From Oscillospiraceae bacterium (GTDB taxonomy: Bacteria > Bacillota > Clostridia > Oscillospirales > Oscillospiraceae), in the NCBI GenBank assembly GCA_016286665.1, contig JAEETX010000001.1, positions 1 through 64,000 of the forward strand: a stretch of DNA of 64,000 nucleotides. Direction: 5' to 3'. This document shows, one piece after another, positions 748 to 63,419 of the stretch. Under the pieces are notes generated by a model. The model was not told the origin of the DNA. It did no database searches and saw nothing but the letters and a program-made list of their open reading frames with translations. Positions within the stretch are counted from its first letter, which is position 1; every line of letters starts with the position of its first letter. A program made the position numbers and the translations under genes.

Positions 748-760
748 TTTTATCGACTCG

Positions 761-869
761 GTGATATGCCCGCTTCGCGGGCGTGATATCCCGCTTCGCG
801 GGGTGATATACGGCCTTTGGCCGTGTGATATCGTGCCCGTCGGGCACGGTTAAGGTATCCCCTTCGGGG
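761..869 (+). repeat. GTGATAT-spaced mini-hairpin array (array 1)
   Basis: GTGATAT at 761, 783, 803, 825 alternating with perfect hairpins GCCCGC-TTC-GCGGGC, CCCGC-TTC-GCGGG, ACGGCC-TTT-GGCCGT, CGTGCCC-GTC-GGGCACG, then CCCC-TTC-GGGG. Confidence 0.88.
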
Positions 870-47591: not shown

Positions 47592-47766
47592 GTGAAATCG
47601 CGGCAAGGCCGCGGTGAAATCTTCGGGCTTCGCCCTCAGGTGAAATCGCTTACTCCGTTCGCGGTGAAATAAAATCCGTCCTTCACCCCGCTCTGCGGGA
47701 TTTCACCGCGCAGCGATTTCACCGCCCGCCAGGGCGATCTCACCCGTCCGTCAGGACGGATTTCAT
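47592..47766. repeat. GTGAAAT-spaced mini-hairpin array (array 3), with inverted halves
   Basis: GTGAAAT at 47592, 47614, 47640, 47664 then ATTTCAC/ATCTCAC/ATTTCAT at 47700, 47716, 47737, 47760. Confidence 0.85.
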
Positions 47767-47767
47767 T

Positions 47768-47805
47768 GAAAAAAGTCTCTTTTGCAAACAAAAGAGACTT
47801 TTTTC
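47768..47805 (-). terminator. Bidirectional terminator downstream of tRNA-Gln
   Basis: GAAAAAAGTCTCTTTTG-CAAA-CAAAAGAGACTTTTTTC, 17-bp perfect arms. Confidence 0.88.
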
Positions 47806-56024: not shown

Positions 56025-56053
56025 TTGACATCCGTTCAAAGGAAACGTATTCT
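56025..56053 (+). promoter_or_regulatory. Promoter for signalling cassette
   Basis: TTGACA - 17 bp - TATTCT, about 45 bp upstream of the first gene. Confidence 0.6.
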
Positions 56054-56096: not shown

Positions 56097-56897
56097 ATGG
56101 ACCGCGTGACGATCCTCGGCGCCAGAGGGAGCGTTCCGAGGGCCGGGAGCGAATTCGCCCGGTTCGGCGGAGACACGACCTGCATCCTGGCGGAGCTGGC
56201 CGGGGAATCCCTCCTGCTGGACGCGGGGACCGGGCTGATGAACTGCCCTCTTCCCCCGGCGGCGGAAGACCGGTCCCTGAGCCTGCTGCTCTCCCATTTC
56301 CACACGGACCATCTGCTGGGTCTCGCCCTCTCTCCCCTGCTGATGGATGGGCGGAACCATCTGCATATCTATGCCGGATGCCGGGATGCCGCGGAGGCGG
56401 AGACGATCCTTGACCGCATCTTCTCCCCGCCGCTGTGGCCGGTGCGCCTGAAGGACCTGCCCGCGGAGGTGCGCTTCCGCCCGCTGCCGGAGCGGCTGCA
56501 GCTGGGGGCTTTGACGGTGGAGACCGCCCGGGGCTGCCACCCCGGCGGCGTGACCCTGATGAAGCTCAGGGGGGGCGGACATACCGTCGTCTTCATGCCG
56601 GACTGCACGGTGACCGACGAAAACCTGCCCGCTCTGGCGGAATTTGCCCGGGGCTGCGACCTGCTGCTGTGCGACGGTCAGTATTTCGACGAGGAATGGC
56701 CCCTCCGCTCCTCCTTCGGCCACAGCACCTGGAGCCGGGCCGTTCGCCTCGCCCTGGCCTCAGGGGCGGGAAAGCTGCGCATCATCCACCACGACCCCTT
56801 TCACACGGACAGCATGCTGGCCGAAGCCCAGGCGCAGCTGACCGCCCGTTATCCCGATTTCGGCTTTGCCCTGGATCAGGAGGTGATCGTCCTATGA
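56097..56897 (+). CDS. MBL-fold metallo-hydrolase (cyclic phosphate/cyclic nucleotide phosphodiesterase-like)
   Basis: 266 aa; LSHFHTDHLLG, DGQYFDEEWP..GHSTW, IIHHDP. Confidence 0.83.
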   Translation: MDRVTILGARGSVPRAGSEFARFGGDTTCILAELAGESLLLDAGTGLMNCPLPPAAEDRSLSLLLSHFHTDHLLGLALSPLLMDGRNHLHIYAGCRDAAEAETILDRIFSPPLWPVRLKDLPAEVRFRPLPERLQLGALTVETARGCHPGGVTLMKLRGGGHTVVFMPDCTVTDENLPALAEFARGCDLLLCDGQYFDEEWPLRSSFGHSTWSRAVRLALASGAGKLRIIHHDPFHTDSMLAEAQAQLTARYPDFGFALDQEVIVL

Positions 56898-58345
56898 CCC
56901 CCGAACAGATACGCCAGTTTTTGCGCATGTGCCTCTCCCTTTCCGCGGAGCGGGACAGGGAAACGCTGCTCTCCCAGATCCTGGACACGGCGATGGACCT
57001 CGCTGACTGCGACGCGGGCACCCTCTACCTTCTGGAGGACGACGGTCTGCACTTCTGCCGCATGGTGACCCGCTCCATGGGCGTTCGCCAGGGCGGCCAT
57101 GCGGACCCCATCACCCTGCCGCCCGTGCCCATGGACCCCAGCTACGTCTGCTCCTGGGTCGTGCTGCACAAGGAACCCATCAACATTTCCGACGTTCGTT
57201 CCGATACGCGCTTCAATTTCTCCGGCTCCGCCAGATACGACGAGATGACCGGCTACCGCACGAAAACCATGCTGGTGCTGCCCCTGGCGGACGACCGGGG
57301 CCAGCTGATCGGCGCGATGCAGCTCATCAACGCCCTGGATGGGGAGGGCAACACGATCTCCTTCGACAGCAGCATCGAGCTGCTGGCCATGGCCATCGCC
57401 TCGCAGGCGGCCATCAGCCTCACCAACATGCGCTATGCCGAGCAGATCACCGCCCTGCTGGATTCCCTGGTGGGGGCCCTCTCCACCGCCATCGACGAGC
57501 GAACCCCCTACAACGCCAACCACACCCGCAACATGGTGAAATACGCTTCCGCTTTTCTGGACTGGCTGGACCGGCAGGGCAGCGAATACCGCTTCGACAG
57601 CGACAAGCGGCGCACCTTCCTGCTGAGCGTCTGGCTCCACGACGTGGGCAAGCTGGTGGTGCCGCTGGAGGTCATGGACAAGGAAAGCCGCCTGGGCCCC
57701 GCGCTGGAGGATATCCGGCAGCGCTTCCGCACCATGGCCCTGCTGGACCGCATCGCCCTGCTGGAGGGAAAGCTGACGGAGGCGGAGGCGGAAGCGCTGG
57801 CAGAGGCGCGAAAGGAGGGCATGGCCCTCGTGGAAAGGCTCAACAAGGCGGGCTTTGTGACGGATGAGGACCTGGCGCAGGCGGACGCCCTGGCCGCGCG
57901 CAGCTTCACCGACGAAGAGGGAAATACCCGCCCCTGGCTCACCGACGAGGAGCACCGGGACCTCTCCATCCGCAAGGGCACCCTGACGCCGGAGGAACGG
58001 CGCATCATGGAGAGCCACGTCACCGTCACCGGCCGCATCCTGGAGCACGTCAGCTTCCCGAAAACCTATGCCCAGGTGCCCCAATGGGCCGGCGGGCACC
58101 ACGAATACCTCAACGGCAAGGGCTATCCCCGGCGCCTGACCGCGGAGGATATCCCCTGGGAGGTGCGGCTGCTGACCATTCTGGACGTATTCGACGCGCT
58201 GACCGCCCGGGACCGCCCCTACAAGGCCCCCATGCCCGTGGAGAAAGCCCTGGCGATCCTCCGCAGCATGGTGGAGGAGGGCAGCCTGGACGGCAGTATT
58301 CTTGCTCTGTTTGAAGCAAGCAGAGCGTGGGAGGAGAGCATATGA
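56894..58345 (+). CDS. GAF domain - HD-GYP-type phosphohydrolase
   Basis: N-terminal GAF; WLHDVGKL ... GGHHEYLNGKGYPRRL; ATGA overlap with both neighbouring genes. Confidence 0.85.
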   Translation: MTPEQIRQFLRMCLSLSAERDRETLLSQILDTAMDLADCDAGTLYLLEDDGLHFCRMVTRSMGVRQGGHADPITLPPVPMDPSYVCSWVVLHKEPINISDVRSDTRFNFSGSARYDEMTGYRTKTMLVLPLADDRGQLIGAMQLINALDGEGNTISFDSSIELLAMAIASQAAISLTNMRYAEQITALLDSLVGALSTAIDERTPYNANHTRNMVKYASAFLDWLDRQGSEYRFDSDKRRTFLLSVWLHDVGKLVVPLEVMDKESRLGPALEDIRQRFRTMALLDRIALLEGKLTEAEAEALAEARKEGMALVERLNKAGFVTDEDLAQADALAARSFTDEEGNTRPWLTDEEHRDLSIRKGTLTPEERRIMESHVTVTGRILEHVSFPKTYAQVPQWAGGHHEYLNGKGYPRRLTAEDIPWEVRLLTILDVFDALTARDRPYKAPMPVEKALAILRSMVEEGSLDGSILALFEASRAWEESI

Positions 58346-59787
58346 AACGATTCCTGAGCCTGATATTGACGCTGGGGCTGCTCATTACCCTGGCCGAACC
58401 CGCCTCCGCCGCGGCCGCCAGAGCCGCTGTGATGCGTCTGCAGCTGGCGGAGGGCAGCGTATCCGTTCAGGATTCCGTGGGGAACAGCCTGAGCTACGTG
58501 AAGGACATGCGGCTTTACAGCGGCTACACCGTCAGCACCGGCAGCGACAGCAGCGCCTACATCCTGCTGGACGACACCAAGGCGGTGAAGCTGGACCGGG
58601 ATACCACCGTCACCATCAGGAAATCCTGGCGGAAGCTGCAGGTCAAGCTGAAATGCGGCCAGCTCAGCTTCAACGTGACCTCGCCCCTGGAGGCCAACGA
58701 ATCCATGGAGATCCGCACTAGCTCCATGGTGCTGGGCGTGCGCGGCTCCTCCGGCGTCGTGAGTCTCCGGGAGGTGATCTTCGTCACCGGACACGGCGTG
58801 GTCCACGGCGGCGGATCGGCGCAGGCCGTCGCGGGCGGCCAGGCCTTCCGCCCGGGGGAGGGCGTCTCCCCCGCCGGCATCTTCGAGCTTCCCGCCTTCT
58901 TCCTGCGGGAAGTGCGGGATAACAGCGAGCTGCAGGACCATATCCGGCAGGAAGGGGTCTATCGGGTGGAGCAGCTGATCGCCGCGCTTCCCGCAGCCGA
59001 GGCCCGGGAGGCGGAGGAACTGGAGGCCGCCATGGCAGCCGTCGAAGCGCCCCCCGCGGCGGAATCCGTCGATCCCGCCTTCGGGAAAGCCTCCTACACC
59101 GTCACCTGGAAGGACGGCGACCGGGTGCTGAAGACCGAGCGGGTTTCGGCGGGCACGGTGCCCGCATGGAGCGGGAAAAAGCCCGTGAAGGAATCGGACG
59201 AAGCGCATGACTATGCCTTCTCCGGCTGGACGCCGGAGCCCTCCGCCGCCGACGGCGACGCGGAATATACCGCCGTCTTCAAGGCTTCCGACCGCAAATA
59301 CACCGTCACCTGGCGCAGCGACGACGGCTCCGTCATCGACACGACCTCCGTTGCCTACGGAAAGACCCCGAAGCACGACGCCCCCGTGAAGGAGGGCGCG
59401 GCGGGGGTAGTCTACGCCTTCACCGGCTGGGACAGGGACCCCGTCCCCGTCACGGGCGACGCGGAATACACCGCCGTCTTCGAGACGACCTATGATTTCG
59501 CCGTCCTCATCCCCCAGGGCACGGATAACTTCTACTATGAAGTCTTCTTCCCCACGGAGGGCAACACCCCCATCACCACCGCCAGGGAGGGAGAGGAATT
59601 CACCTTCTACCTGGGCGGCGCGCCCGGCGGGGTTTCCGTCGAGGTTCTGGTCAACGGCTATGTGCTGGGCGGGGGCCCGGTCACCTTCCACGACGACACG
59701 GAAGCCTTCGTCTGCACCTTCATCGTTCCGAAGGACCCCGTGATCGAAATACGTCCGGCCGCCGCGGATGCGCCGGCCGCCAAGTAA
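58342..59787 (+). CDS. Secreted FecR-domain protein with two InlB B-repeat-like modules
   Basis: Signal peptide; FecR-like GNSLSYVKDMRLYSGYTVSTGSDSSAYILLDDTKAVKLDRDTTVTI; repeats YTVTW...YAFSGW...DAEYTAVF. Confidence 0.8.
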   Translation: MKRFLSLILTLGLLITLAEPASAAAARAAVMRLQLAEGSVSVQDSVGNSLSYVKDMRLYSGYTVSTGSDSSAYILLDDTKAVKLDRDTTVTIRKSWRKLQVKLKCGQLSFNVTSPLEANESMEIRTSSMVLGVRGSSGVVSLREVIFVTGHGVVHGGGSAQAVAGGQAFRPGEGVSPAGIFELPAFFLREVRDNSELQDHIRQEGVYRVEQLIAALPAAEAREAEELEAAMAAVEAPPAAESVDPAFGKASYTVTWKDGDRVLKTERVSAGTVPAWSGKKPVKESDEAHDYAFSGWTPEPSAADGDAEYTAVFKASDRKYTVTWRSDDGSVIDTTSVAYGKTPKHDAPVKEGAAGVVYAFTGWDRDPVPVTGDAEYTAVFETTYDFAVLIPQGTDNFYYEVFFPTEGNTPITTAREGEEFTFYLGGAPGGVSVEVLVNGYVLGGGPVTFHDDTEAFVCTFIVPKDPVIEIRPAAADAPAAK

Positions 59788-59834
59788 GCAGCCGCCGCTG
59801 CGGCTGACGTCACTTTTTCCGCAATGGAGGCGCT

Positions 59835-61658
59835 ATGAAGATTTCCCCGGCACTTAAACGCATCCTCGCAGCGGTGCTGGCCGCCGCGGCGCTGACTGCT
59901 CCGGCAGCCCTGGGGCTGCTGCGGGACCAGGACCTGACCGTGTCCGACGCGCTCTATCAGTCTCCCGCCGCCGGGGACGTTCCCATCGTGGTCGTGGGCA
60001 TGGACCAGCGGGCGGTGGACGCCCTGGGGCCCCTGCCCTGGCCCCGCAGCGCCATGGCCCGGGCGATCCGCTATCTGAACGGCGAAGAATCGCTGAAGCC
60101 GGCGGTCATCGGCGTCGACGTGCTCTTTGTGGGGGAAAGCGCAGACCCCGCAGAGGACGCGGCGCTGGCCTCTGCGGCGGCGGAGGGCGGCAACCTGGTC
60201 TTTGCCTCCGCGGGGACCTTCCGCAGCGATCTCGCGGCGGAGGGCGGCGGCTTTTATGTGGACAAGCAGGCCCTGCAGGGTTGGGACAAGCCCTATGACG
60301 CCCTGGCCGCCGTTTCGGGCACCGGGCATATCAACGCCATGGCGGACAGCGACGGCATCCTGCGCCACGCGAAGCTCTTCGTGGATGTGCCGGGGACCGG
60401 CAGGGTCGATTCCTTTTCCCGGGTGATTTATGAAAAGTACGCCGCATTTTGCGGCAAGGCGCCGTCAGAGCGGCCCGCGACCAACGCCAAGGGCTTTTTC
60501 TACATTCCCTTTACCGGGATGCCCGGCAGCTATTACGGCGGCGTCAGTATCCTCGACCTGATGGAAGGGACCGTGCCCCGGGACCACTTTGCGGGAAAGA
60601 TCGTCCTCATCGGCCCCTATGCGCCGGGCATGCAGGACGAATACCGCACCAGCATGGACCACGCGGCCCCCATGTACGGCATCGAATTCCACGCGAACCT
60701 GATCGAAGCCTTCGACACTGGCTTCTATCCCAGGGAGGTGGGGCGGCTGTGGCAGCTTGCGCTCCTGTTCCTTCTTTCCGGCCTCTGCTTCTGGTGGCTG
60801 TGGGACCGGAAGATGCTCCACGCCGCCGTGGCCTGGCTTCTCCTCTGCGCCCTCTGGATCGGCCTCTGTCTGGGCCTGTACCGGCTGGCGGGCCTGGTGC
60901 TCCACGTGCTGTGGATCCCCGCGGCCGTCACCGCCGTCTTCATCGCCTCCGTGGCCCTGAACTACATCCGGGCCTCCCTGGAAAAGCGCTATATCACCAA
61001 CACCTTCCGGCGCTATGTGGACCCGGCGATCCTCAAGGAGCTGCTGGTGAAGGGCGGCGCGGCGGAGGACCTGGGAGGCAGGACCTTCGACATCGCCGTG
61101 CTTTTTGTGGATATCCGCGGCTTCACCACCATGAGCGAATCCCTGGACCCCCCCACGGTGGTGAGCATCATCAACCAATACCTGACCCTGACCACGGAAT
61201 GCGTCATGCGCCGTCACGGCACCCTGGACAAATTCGTCGGGGACTGCACCATGGCCTTCTGGAACGCCCCCCTGCCCCAGGAGGACCCGGTTTACCTGGC
61301 CTGCTGCGCCGCCATGGACATGGTGGAGGGCTCCAAGGAGCTGGGGCGGCAGCTGCAGGAGCGCTTCGGGCGCACCGTCAGCTTCGGCGTGGGCGTCCAC
61401 TTCGGACCCGCCGTCGTGGGCAACATCGGCGCGCCCCAGCGCATGGACTACACCGCCATCGGCGACACCGTGAACACGGCTTCCCGGCTGGAATCCAACG
61501 CGCCGGGCGGCACGATCTACATCTCCCGCGCCGTGGCCGACGCCCTGGGCGACCGGGCAAGGACCACCTCGTTGGGCGGAAGCGTCAAGCTCAAGGGGAA
61601 AGCGGAGGGCTTCGAGGTGCTGACGCTGGACTCCCTGGACATGGAAGAAAGGAAATGA
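59835..61658 (+). CDS. CHASE2 domain - class III adenylate/guanylate cyclase
   Basis: 607 aa; extracytoplasmic CHASE2, three TMs, cyclase core FVDIRGFTTMSE / KFVGDCTMAFWN / DYTAIGDTVNTASRLE. Confidence 0.9.
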   Translation: MKISPALKRILAAVLAAAALTAPAALGLLRDQDLTVSDALYQSPAAGDVPIVVVGMDQRAVDALGPLPWPRSAMARAIRYLNGEESLKPAVIGVDVLFVGESADPAEDAALASAAAEGGNLVFASAGTFRSDLAAEGGGFYVDKQALQGWDKPYDALAAVSGTGHINAMADSDGILRHAKLFVDVPGTGRVDSFSRVIYEKYAAFCGKAPSERPATNAKGFFYIPFTGMPGSYYGGVSILDLMEGTVPRDHFAGKIVLIGPYAPGMQDEYRTSMDHAAPMYGIEFHANLIEAFDTGFYPREVGRLWQLALLFLLSGLCFWWLWDRKMLHAAVAWLLLCALWIGLCLGLYRLAGLVLHVLWIPAAVTAVFIASVALNYIRASLEKRYITNTFRRYVDPAILKELLVKGGAAEDLGGRTFDIAVLFVDIRGFTTMSESLDPPTVVSIINQYLTLTTECVMRRHGTLDKFVGDCTMAFWNAPLPQEDPVYLACCAAMDMVEGSKELGRQLQERFGRTVSFGVGVHFGPAVVGNIGAPQRMDYTAIGDTVNTASRLESNAPGGTIYISRAVADALGDRARTTSLGGSVKLKGKAEGFEVLTLDSLDMEERK

Positions 61659-61660
61659 CC

Positions 61661-63178
61661 ATGAAACGAATCCTTCCGGCTGTACTGCTGATCTGCGCCA
61701 TCCTGACCTGCGCCGTCTCCGCCGCCTTCGTCTCCCCGGATTTTGAGGGGGGCATGATCTCCGGTATCTGGCTGGACGGCGGCACCCTGTATGCGGCGGA
61801 CATCCAAAACAAGGTCGTCTGGCGCGTCCGGGACGGGGAGGCCGCGGTCCTTGCCGGCGACCGCAGCTATCGGGATGCCAGCGGCGTCGTCTTCCCCGAT
61901 TACTTCGACGCCGCCCTGACGGAGGCCCGCTTTGCGGAGCCCTGGGCGATCGTTCCCTTCCTGGAGGGCTGGGCGGTCTCCGACGCCGGTTCCAACACGG
62001 TCCGCTATATTGCCGGCGGCAAGGTGATGACGGCGGCCGGCAAGCGGGAAGCCGGCTTCCTGGACGGCTTCTGCACGGACGCCCGGCTCTCCCGTCCCAC
62101 CGGCCTTGCCCGGGATGACGAAGGGGGGCTTTACATCGCCGACACCGGCAACGGCGCGATCCGCCGCCTGGACACGGAGGGCAATCTCACCACGGTCCGG
62201 ACCGGCCTTCAGGGCCCCACGGGGCTCTGCTGGCATGACGGCGCGCTCTACATCGCCGAGACCGGGCGCAGCCGCATCCTCCGCCTGGAGGGGAACAAGC
62301 TGGAGGTCCTGGCGGGAGACGGCGGCGAAATGGACGAATACGGGGTCTACGGCTGCGGCTATGCCGACGGGCCCGCGGCTTCTGCCCTGTTCGAGCACCC
62401 CCAGGGCGTCGCCGTCAGCGACGACGGCACGGTCTATATCGCCGACACCGGCAACGGGGCCGTGCGGCGGCTCATGGATGGCCGGGTCAGCACCATGGCG
62501 GTCACCAGCGAGGACGATCTGCTTCTGGCTTCCCCCCAGGGCATCCTGGTCAGCGGAAACAGCATCCTGGTTTCGGATTCCCTCACCGGCGCGATCATGG
62601 AATTCGATACCCGCATCCACCGGTTCAGCGACGTTTCCGAGAAGGTATGGTATGCGCCCTCCGTGCGGGAGGCGCTGATCCGGGGCATCATCGACGGCGG
62701 CAGCGATACCTTCCGCCCCAACGATCCCATGACCCGCATGGATTTCGTGCGGATGCTGGCAAACCTCCAGCTGAGCCTGAACGGCAGCACCGTGATCAAC
62801 GGCAGCTTCTCCTTCACGGACGTCGGCGACGAAACGCCCTTTGCCGCCGTCGCCCGCTGGTCCGGCGACTTCGGCATCATCACCGGCAAGACCACCGGGG
62901 AATTTGCCGGGGACGAGCCCATCCAGCGGCAGCAGATGGTCGCCATCCTCTACCGCTTCATCACCATCAGCGAGATGGACAACGTCCCCTCCGGGGACCT
63001 CAGCGCCTTCACGGACGGGGACAGGACCTCCCGCTACGCGCGGGACGCCATGGTCTGGGCCGTGAGCCGGGGCATCATCAACGGCTTCCCCGACGGCAGC
63101 CTCGACCCCTTCGGCGGCGCCACCCGCGCCCAGGCGGTAAAGATGATCGTCTATTTCATGGACATGTATGGATTCTGA
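61661..63178 (+). CDS. Secreted NHL-repeat beta-propeller protein with C-terminal SLH domains
   Basis: Signal peptide MKRILPAVLLICAILTCAVSA; repeated LYIADTGNGAIRRL; C-terminal SLH motifs. Confidence 0.88.
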   Translation: MKRILPAVLLICAILTCAVSAAFVSPDFEGGMISGIWLDGGTLYAADIQNKVVWRVRDGEAAVLAGDRSYRDASGVVFPDYFDAALTEARFAEPWAIVPFLEGWAVSDAGSNTVRYIAGGKVMTAAGKREAGFLDGFCTDARLSRPTGLARDDEGGLYIADTGNGAIRRLDTEGNLTTVRTGLQGPTGLCWHDGALYIAETGRSRILRLEGNKLEVLAGDGGEMDEYGVYGCGYADGPAASALFEHPQGVAVSDDGTVYIADTGNGAVRRLMDGRVSTMAVTSEDDLLLASPQGILVSGNSILVSDSLTGAIMEFDTRIHRFSDVSEKVWYAPSVREALIRGIIDGGSDTFRPNDPMTRMDFVRMLANLQLSLNGSTVINGSFSFTDVGDETPFAAVARWSGDFGIITGKTTGEFAGDEPIQRQQMVAILYRFITISEMDNVPSGDLSAFTDGDRTSRYARDAMVWAVSRGIINGFPDGSLDPFGGATRAQAVKMIVYFMDMYGF

Positions 63179-63191
63179 ACTGCACACACAA

Positions 63192-63406
63192 AACGCCGCC
63201 TGCCCGGTTGGGGCAGGCGGCGCTCAAGCTGTCGACACTTTGTCGACAGCTTGAGCGCAAAATCAGAAATGCATTCTGATTTTGCAAGGATATTACGTGA
63301 GGGGGGATTCCCGTCCCCCCTCACGGTTCCCCCATGCATGTCGAACCTCTGCCGAAAGGTTTGTCTACAGTCTGAACGCCGCCTGCCCGGTTGGGGCAGG
63401 CGGCGC
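63192..63406. repeat. Multi-hairpin intergenic block flanked by a 33-bp direct repeat of a terminator hairpin (array 6)
   Basis: AACGCCGCCTGCCCGGTTGGGGCAGGCGGCGCT at 63192-63224 and 63374-63406; between them perfect hairpins at 63220-63258, 63257-63285, 63296-63325. Confidence 0.88.
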
Positions 63407-63419
63407 TTTTATGCTTCGA

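Follow-up and report, generated by a model that had tools for sequence, protein, structure and literature searches.

The window examined here is a 64,000-nucleotide stretch of an Oscillospiraceae bacterium (assembly GCA_016286665.1, contig JAEETX010000001.1), and at positions 56097-63178 it carries five consecutive open reading frames (ORFs) on the + strand, exactly where an original prediction made from the sequence letters had placed them. In order, they encode a metallo-β-lactamase (MBL)-fold hydrolase of 266 residues (56097-56897), a GAF-HD-GYP protein of 483 residues (56894-58345), a secreted FecR-domain protein of 481 residues (58342-59787), a putative class IIIb adenylate cyclase of 607 residues with a CHASE2 domain (59835-61658), and an NHL β-propeller protein of 505-507 residues with three SLH cell-wall-anchor repeats (61655 or 61661 to 63178). 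Pfam returns Lactamase_B_2 for the first gene, GAF and HD_5 (HD-GYP) for the second, FecR for the third, CHASE2 and Guanylate_cyc for the fourth, and NHL with three SLH for the fifth, which bears out every predicted domain apart from the InlB-like repeats of the FecR protein. Two repeats of this InlB/List_Bact type are visible by eye (~59095-59487), but they score below the Pfam cut-off (Flg_new, 16.6 vs 27 bits).

The spacing of the genes suggests that all five are co-transcribed. ATGA overlaps occur at 56894-56897 and 58342-58345, and the gap before the cyclase gene (59787/59835), the only one predicted, is exactly 47 bp. The third predicted overlap, at 61655-61658, hinges on the start of the NHL gene, for which a second ATG at 61661 looks equally likely and would leave a 2-bp gap instead. 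The predicted sigma-70-like promoter, TTGACA-17-TATTCT, is present at 56025-56053 (+ strand; 10/12 matches; 44 bp 5' of the first ATG) as the sole intergenic promoter-like site on that strand ahead of the operon; as shuffled sequences yield 1.2 such sites per region, it carries little weight alone. Among 56 related loci, promoter-like sites lie upstream of the MBL gene in 24, and no conserved promoter position or regulator site was seen there.

Enzymes and surface proteins of the operon

The cyclase comprises a CHASE2 extracytoplasmic sensor domain (59886-60767, E ~1e-38) and a class III catalytic domain (61089-61607) with the residue set of class III(b): two metal-binding Asp, the transition-state Asn and Arg, and the Lys and Thr/Asp that select adenine. 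Residues D426, K466, D470, T540, N547 and R551 are each found in 81 of 82 aligned cyclase rows, a conservation that is somewhat biased as the loci were partly found by active-site patterns including DCTMAFWN and MDYTAIGD. We take K466/T540 to be the adenylate pair of class IIIb enzymes. CyaB of P. aeruginosa and CyaC are among the cyclase structures nearest to it. The product would hence be cyclic AMP (cAMP).

Conservation of the two hydrolases is free of this bias. In the MBL protein, the ligands H67, H69, D71, H72, H148, D169, H209 and H231 are conserved in 46 of 46 aligned rows, and 44 of the 46 display the pattern [T/S]HXHXDH (SHFHTDH in the window), which is the signature of the Rv1339/YhfI/CpdA atypical class-II phosphodiesterases (PMC9293780). 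Its AlphaFold model (predicted local distance difference test score, pLDDT, 95.7) finds RNase Z, YhfI and Apyc1 as the nearest solved folds. These features point at a likely cyclic-nucleotide phosphodiesterase of the atypical class II and fit removal of the cyclase product, cAMP, by this enzyme.

The GAF-HD-GYP protein (AlphaFold pLDDT 89.8) combines a putative cAMP reader with a predicted hydrolase of cyclic di-GMP (c-di-GMP) or 3',3'-cyclic GMP-AMP (3',3'-cGAMP). Its GAF domain (56954-57421) carries at residues 116-123 the D-x-x-T-G-Y-x-T motif (D-x-x-T-G-Y/F-x-T in general form) of GAF domains that bind cyclic nucleoside monophosphates (cNMPs), where, following the PDE2A GAF-B structure, we presume that the motif contacts the nucleotide. 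Sequence, fold and motif alike relate it to the cNMP-binding class of PDE2, PDE5, CyaB2 and Lcd1. Its PDB matches are led by the cNMP-binding GAF domains of PDE5, CyaB2, PDE10A and PDE2A and by 5w10, the Lcd1 GAF with cAMP bound, while the nearest solved folds to the protein as a whole are PmGH, the PDE5 GAF, the cAMP-bound Lcd1 GAF, the CyaB2 GAF and DvhD. The HD-GYP domain (57449-58321) shows the HD pair (H249-D250) and the HHExxxGxGYP motif (H402-P412), separated by a helical insert of ~100 residues, and has seven of the eight PmGH metal ligands; H210, H249, D250, H375, H402, H403 and D431 are each present in 39 of 39 rows. Y206 occupies the position of PmGH E185.

The two remaining proteins appear to face outward. 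The FecR protein has a hydrophobic N-terminus ahead of its FecR domain (~58528-58755), and in the NHL protein the propeller (~61748-62620) is followed by the SLH repeats (~62621-63169). Both genes recur across related loci (labeled L with a number), with hydrophobic N-termini in nearly all; 28 of 53 NHL proteins are held by SLH repeats, and the others have different likely membrane or lipid anchors. In L104, a single ORF of 1346 residues fuses FecR, List_Bact repeats, leucine-rich repeats (LRR), SLH and NHL, and the fused parts hence probably cooperate outside the membrane. Two further observations concern such surface proteins. Before the cyclase, eight Negativicutes loci have, instead of FecR/NHL, a secreted protein of ~305 residues that is LPP20/FlgT-like by eye (e.g., L039:9013-9939), and in the window itself a further match to the NHL-SLH profile lies upstream of the operon at ~45914.

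Recurrence of the gene set

A cyclase scan of GTDB contigs returned 80 loci from Lachnospiraceae, Oscillospiraceae, Selenomonadaceae and others, 46-69% identical, and the full comparison covered loci from ~100 relatives, Negativicutes included. Carriers available in culture include [Clostridium] asparagiforme DSM 15981 and Butyrivibrio sp. AE3009. Profile searches on six-frame translations were used for a census of the 47 loci in which the CHASE2 cyclase is flanked by at least 6 kb on either side. A GAF output gene was found in 36 of these, FecR in 35 and NHL in 26; the MBL gene was present in at least 28, with divergent MBL parts of fusions uncounted. A surface gene of any kind (FecR, NHL or LPP20) accompanied the cyclase in 40 loci, and no module gene was found in 3. 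Genomes present in both collections searched, recognized by identical cyclase rows (L003 = L099, L004 = L102, L013 = L103, L019 = L101) slightly inflate such counts, and loci cut by contig ends were scored as lacking the missing genes. The census includes L116 and L117, where distant cyclases stand beside a shorter GAF-HD-GYP protein without the cNMP motif, together with FecR and NHL; these two were kept out of the argument on cAMP.

Across loci, gene order is shuffled and the flanking genes are unrelated, so the association is not simple synteny. Besides the cyclase, the most constant pair is the MBL protein and the GAF enzyme, whose genes lie no more than 150 bp apart in 46 of 49 cases and mostly overlap or nearly do so. 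A reverse search with the MBL protein alone against 147 genomes of the order matched six other genomes. Four of the five matches that are not cut by a contig end on the downstream side of the MBL gene adjoin cyclase and/or FecR genes: L129 and L130 hold all five genes in the order of the window, L132 reads MBL-FecR-cyclase-NHL-CNBD (CNBD, cyclic-nucleotide-binding domain), and in L133 the MBL gene adjoins FecR at the contig end. The match in L131 is cut off, and the one in L128 has no cyclase nearby. As a separate observation, a second, partial CHASE2-cyclase-like match (L056:3741-4898) adjoins a complete cluster and gives the impression of a duplicated input gene.

The original prediction had named a neighborhood conserved in no relative, or catalytically dead enzymes, as grounds for abandoning it. 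The set is conserved in most relatives, and the catalytic residues that were tested are nearly invariant.

Exchange of the output gene

The gene that would read the cyclase product differs between loci. Next to the MBL gene, eight Negativicutes loci encode GAF-GGDEF in place of GAF-HD-GYP (in L061 the profile detected the GAF part only). GAF-GGDEF is also encoded at L008, a GAF-only gene lies at L009, and in L067, L071, L074, L080, L112 and L115 a single MBL-GAF-GGDEF protein, cut by the contig end in L071, is encoded near or next to the cyclase. The GGDEF domains retain intact GGEEF and GHNAGD motifs, which we take to mark makers of c-di-GMP as opposed to the cGAMP-making hybrid (Hypr) type; thus these outputs should make c-di-GMP, not cGAMP. 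The cyclase tree puts GGDEF outputs at no fewer than three separate positions, next to HD-type loci, and well-supported branches force five output changes.

An unrelated cNMP-binding fold appears to stand in for the GAF domain at some loci. In L108, a CRP-type CNBD is joined to GGDEF directly after the MBL gene. Of 37 loci in which no GAF output was found, 5 encode CNBD proteins, compared with none of the 63 that have a GAF output (Fisher p=0.006), and L132 adds a sixth case beyond those five. CNBD-SpoIIE genes in L072 and L113 lie one or more genes from the cyclase, and we are less sure of their membership. The constant feature of the output variants is a domain that reads a cyclic nucleotide, an argument for the GAF domain being the reader of the cyclase product; we regard this swapping as the decisive clue. 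The GAF-HD-GYP protein fits a cAMP-reading enzyme that acts on c-di-GMP, given that GAF-GGDEF or CNBD-GGDEF repeatedly occupies its place.

Other CNBD fusions were seen at these loci. CNBD-DUF2225 proteins are encoded in two cyclase loci (L107:4088-5224 and L108:12240-13586, the latter being the second CNBD gene of L108), giving DUF2225 a possible link to cyclic nucleotides. Directly after NHL, a CNBD is fused to a Na+/H+-antiporter-like membrane protein (L018:3546-5543 and L132:507-2525, the call for L132 resting on its sequence likeness to L018), possibly a cAMP-gated transporter.

Cyclic-nucleotide genes of the host

The host is represented by a 2.86-Mb metagenome-assembled genome that is 83% complete, which limits every absence given here. 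Within this assembly, the operon cyclase is the sole class III cyclase and the sole CHASE2 protein found, and the MBL protein has no other relative at E<=0.001. The cNMP motif is present only in the operon GAF among three GAF domains; the other two look like those of a free methionine sulfoxide reductase and of a GAF-GGDEF protein. The only CRP-family protein found adjoins a ferredoxin-like gene and has no Arg to bind the phosphate of a cNMP. Because no second class III cyclase, MBL protein of this kind or cNMP-motif GAF was found, this operon alone would, as far as the assembly goes, handle the synthesis, reading and removal of cAMP. The genome further has 11 GGDEF domain matches, and c-di-GMP should therefore be available as a substrate.

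A proposed surface-to-cytoplasm relay and its alternatives

We propose that the operon is a self-contained relay from the cell surface to the cytoplasm, in which a cAMP signal is passed on to c-di-GMP, and put the probability of this reading at about 0.6. The FecR protein with its InlB-like repeats and the SLH-NHL protein would form an extracytoplasmic arm for sensing and anchoring, held in the cell wall. Upon a cue from the surface or the cell wall, this arm would act on the CHASE2 domain, presumably by direct contact, and the membrane cyclase would make cAMP. Binding of cAMP to the GAF domain would switch the HD-GYP domain, most likely on, so that c-di-GMP falls, while hydrolysis of cAMP by the MBL protein would reset the signal. 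Activation rather than inhibition is assumed because of the precedent of Lcd1 and Tlr0485 (PMC8846402). At loci of the GGDEF type, the same input would raise c-di-GMP. The circuit of outside sensor and anchor, synthase and hydrolases set out in the original prediction thus gains support from conservation and intact active sites in a more specific form, with the refinement that the MBL and HD-GYP hydrolases probably act on different messengers.

Several observations weigh against this relay. The MBL protein scores 51.9 bits (E 6.7e-14) against the NCBIfam equivalog model NF041851, whose cut-off is 400, and is therefore described as related to, not a member of, that equivalog; RNase Z is equally close to it in fold. 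CHASE2 is patchy within the class, where 6 of 118 genomes carry it. L128 has the MBL gene without a nearby cyclase, and L106, L059 and L024 have the cyclase without the module. No PilZ protein was found in the host genome, and a search for c-di-GMP-I riboswitches gave no match, with control genomes likewise silent. Finally, Y206 at the E185 position places the window enzyme in the Y/F subfamily of HD-GYP domains (PMC4159591), which may not share the substrate of PmGH.

The last point opens an unlikely variant in which the relay is otherwise the same and the HD-GYP domain acts on 3',3'-cGAMP instead of c-di-GMP. V-cGAP3, a 3',3'-cGAMP phosphodiesterase that likewise has Tyr at the E185 position, is among the two best PDB matches. 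However, the domains that replace HD-GYP are canonical GGDEF domains and not of the Hypr type, and the 11 GGDEF domain matches of the host speak for c-di-GMP.

Another improbable reading would have the MBL and HD-GYP proteins as turnover enzymes without an allosteric link, the GAF domain sensing redox state or a metabolite and the genes being merely co-regulated. GAF domains do bind many ligands, and 11 of 64 related GAF ORFs, some of them truncated or distant, are without the strict motif, a few without its T119-G120 part. Yet D116, Y121 and T123 are near-invariant among relatives, the CNBD fold appears only in loci where no GAF gene was found, and MBL, GAF and GGDEF are fused in one protein at several loci.

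The tandem arrays of very large FecR or LRR proteins at L004, L043 and L098 would suit a surface or adhesin cluster whose output consists of the FecR, InlB, SLH and NHL proteins, with the signaling genes regulating only their own surface genes. This appears quite unlikely, as none of the five genes codes for a DNA-binding protein and it is the MBL-GAF pair that most constantly accompanies the cyclase. An anti-phage system of the Pycsar or another type built on a class III cyclase is very improbable: PADLOC models for PycC match the cyclase domain and the MBL protein is related to Apyc1, which degrades cyclic nucleotides, but the PycC match is that of a generic class III cyclase, a Pycsar effector (PycTIR or PycTM) is absent, PADLOC is silent for genes 1-3 and marginal for the NHL protein (E=0.00094), and a membrane CHASE2 cyclase with secreted partners lies here among housekeeping genes.

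Relation to described systems

Each enzyme type of the proposed relay has a characterized relative, and direct control of c-di-GMP enzymes by cAMP is already known from Lcd1, Tlr0485 and Bd1971. Tlr0485 of Thermosynechococcus, a cAMP-activated GAF-HD-GYP c-di-GMP phosphodiesterase (PMC8846402), is by description the counterpart of the window protein in joining both domains in one chain under proposed cAMP control; in contrast, we found no description of an operon-borne cyclase, a dedicated cAMP hydrolase or a surface arm for it. Lcd1 (LIC13137) of Leptospira, a cAMP-activated GAF-GGDEF diguanylate cyclase (PMC8846402), matches the window GAF in fold (5w10) and has the architecture of the Negativicutes output gene; it is a synthase, whereas the window output is a hydrolase. 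Bd1971 of Bdellovibrio, a cNMP-binding-EAL c-di-GMP phosphodiesterase (PMC6717892), also places c-di-GMP breakdown under cAMP and parallels the CNBD-GGDEF variant of L108, but it has EAL in place of HD-GYP and its cyclases are encoded elsewhere. With Rv1339, YhfI and CpdA of C. glutamicum (PMC9293780), the window MBL protein shares fold and signature, and YhfI is among its top structural matches; it differs in falling below the equivalog cut-off and in being genetically tied to one cyclase.

The BiofilmReg operon of Burkholderia encodes a LysM-FecR protein, a CHASE2 histidine kinase and a response regulator (PMC5192318). A secreted FecR protein likewise adjoins a CHASE2 membrane sensor there, but the output is the kinase and response regulator instead of cAMP, and MBL, GAF-HD-GYP and NHL-SLH are missing. 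The window operon is not of this type, with CHASE2 sitting on a cyclase and neither kinase nor response regulator encoded, nor does it fit Fec-type surface signaling, since it has neither an extracytoplasmic function (ECF) sigma factor nor a TonB receptor gene.

In line with the earlier impression that the set is no named system, we found no account of the operon family, of a cyclase and phosphodiesterase pair dedicated to serving a cAMP-controlled c-di-GMP enzyme, or of the swapping of outputs in the open-access literature that was searched. Taken together, we see an even chance that this is an undescribed modular "plug-in" operon family of Clostridia and Negativicutes, with a fixed core of surface arm, CHASE2 cyclase and MBL hydrolase, and exchangeable cNMP-reading outputs in which GAF or CNBD is joined to HD-GYP, GGDEF, SpoIIE phosphatase, DUF2225 or an antiporter. 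There is a good chance that the family deserves its own name.

Surroundings of the operon

Housekeeping genes, glyA and proA, neighbor the operon, glyA being located upstream on the opposite strand. Downstream lie a convergent cupin-like gene and, just 3' of the operon at 63180-63410, a repeated hairpin element of ~150-220 bp that contains hairpin direct repeats of 33 nt and has imperfect inverted repeats at its termini. Roughly two dozen related sites elsewhere in the genome give it the look of a miniature inverted-repeat transposable element (MITE) or a repetitive extragenic palindromic (REP) element. A terminator-like hairpin with a T-rich tail (63377-63405, + strand) lies inside this element and therefore counts as a candidate terminator only. 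The window further contains two genes for Gut-1 RNA (RF01706), a small RNA family, at 759-836 (+) and 47695-47768 (-), the latter adjoining tRNA-Gln and tRNA-His.

Significance

In cAMP signaling, gut and rumen Clostridia are almost uncharted. The operon would place a complete cAMP circuit for making, reading and removing the messenger within ~7 kb, in a host where no other class III cyclase was found, and it predicts a direct link from cAMP to c-di-GMP. The gene set is found repeatedly in Clostridia and Negativicutes of rumen and gut, combined with interchangeable output parts, and if the relay is correct, one surface signal would elicit opposite c-di-GMP responses in different species. The repeated exchange would then be a natural experiment on what CHASE2 and FecR sense and on how one input gets rewired to opposite outputs. 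In rumen and gut bacteria, the operon may thereby tie contact with the cell wall or a surface to lifestyle switching.

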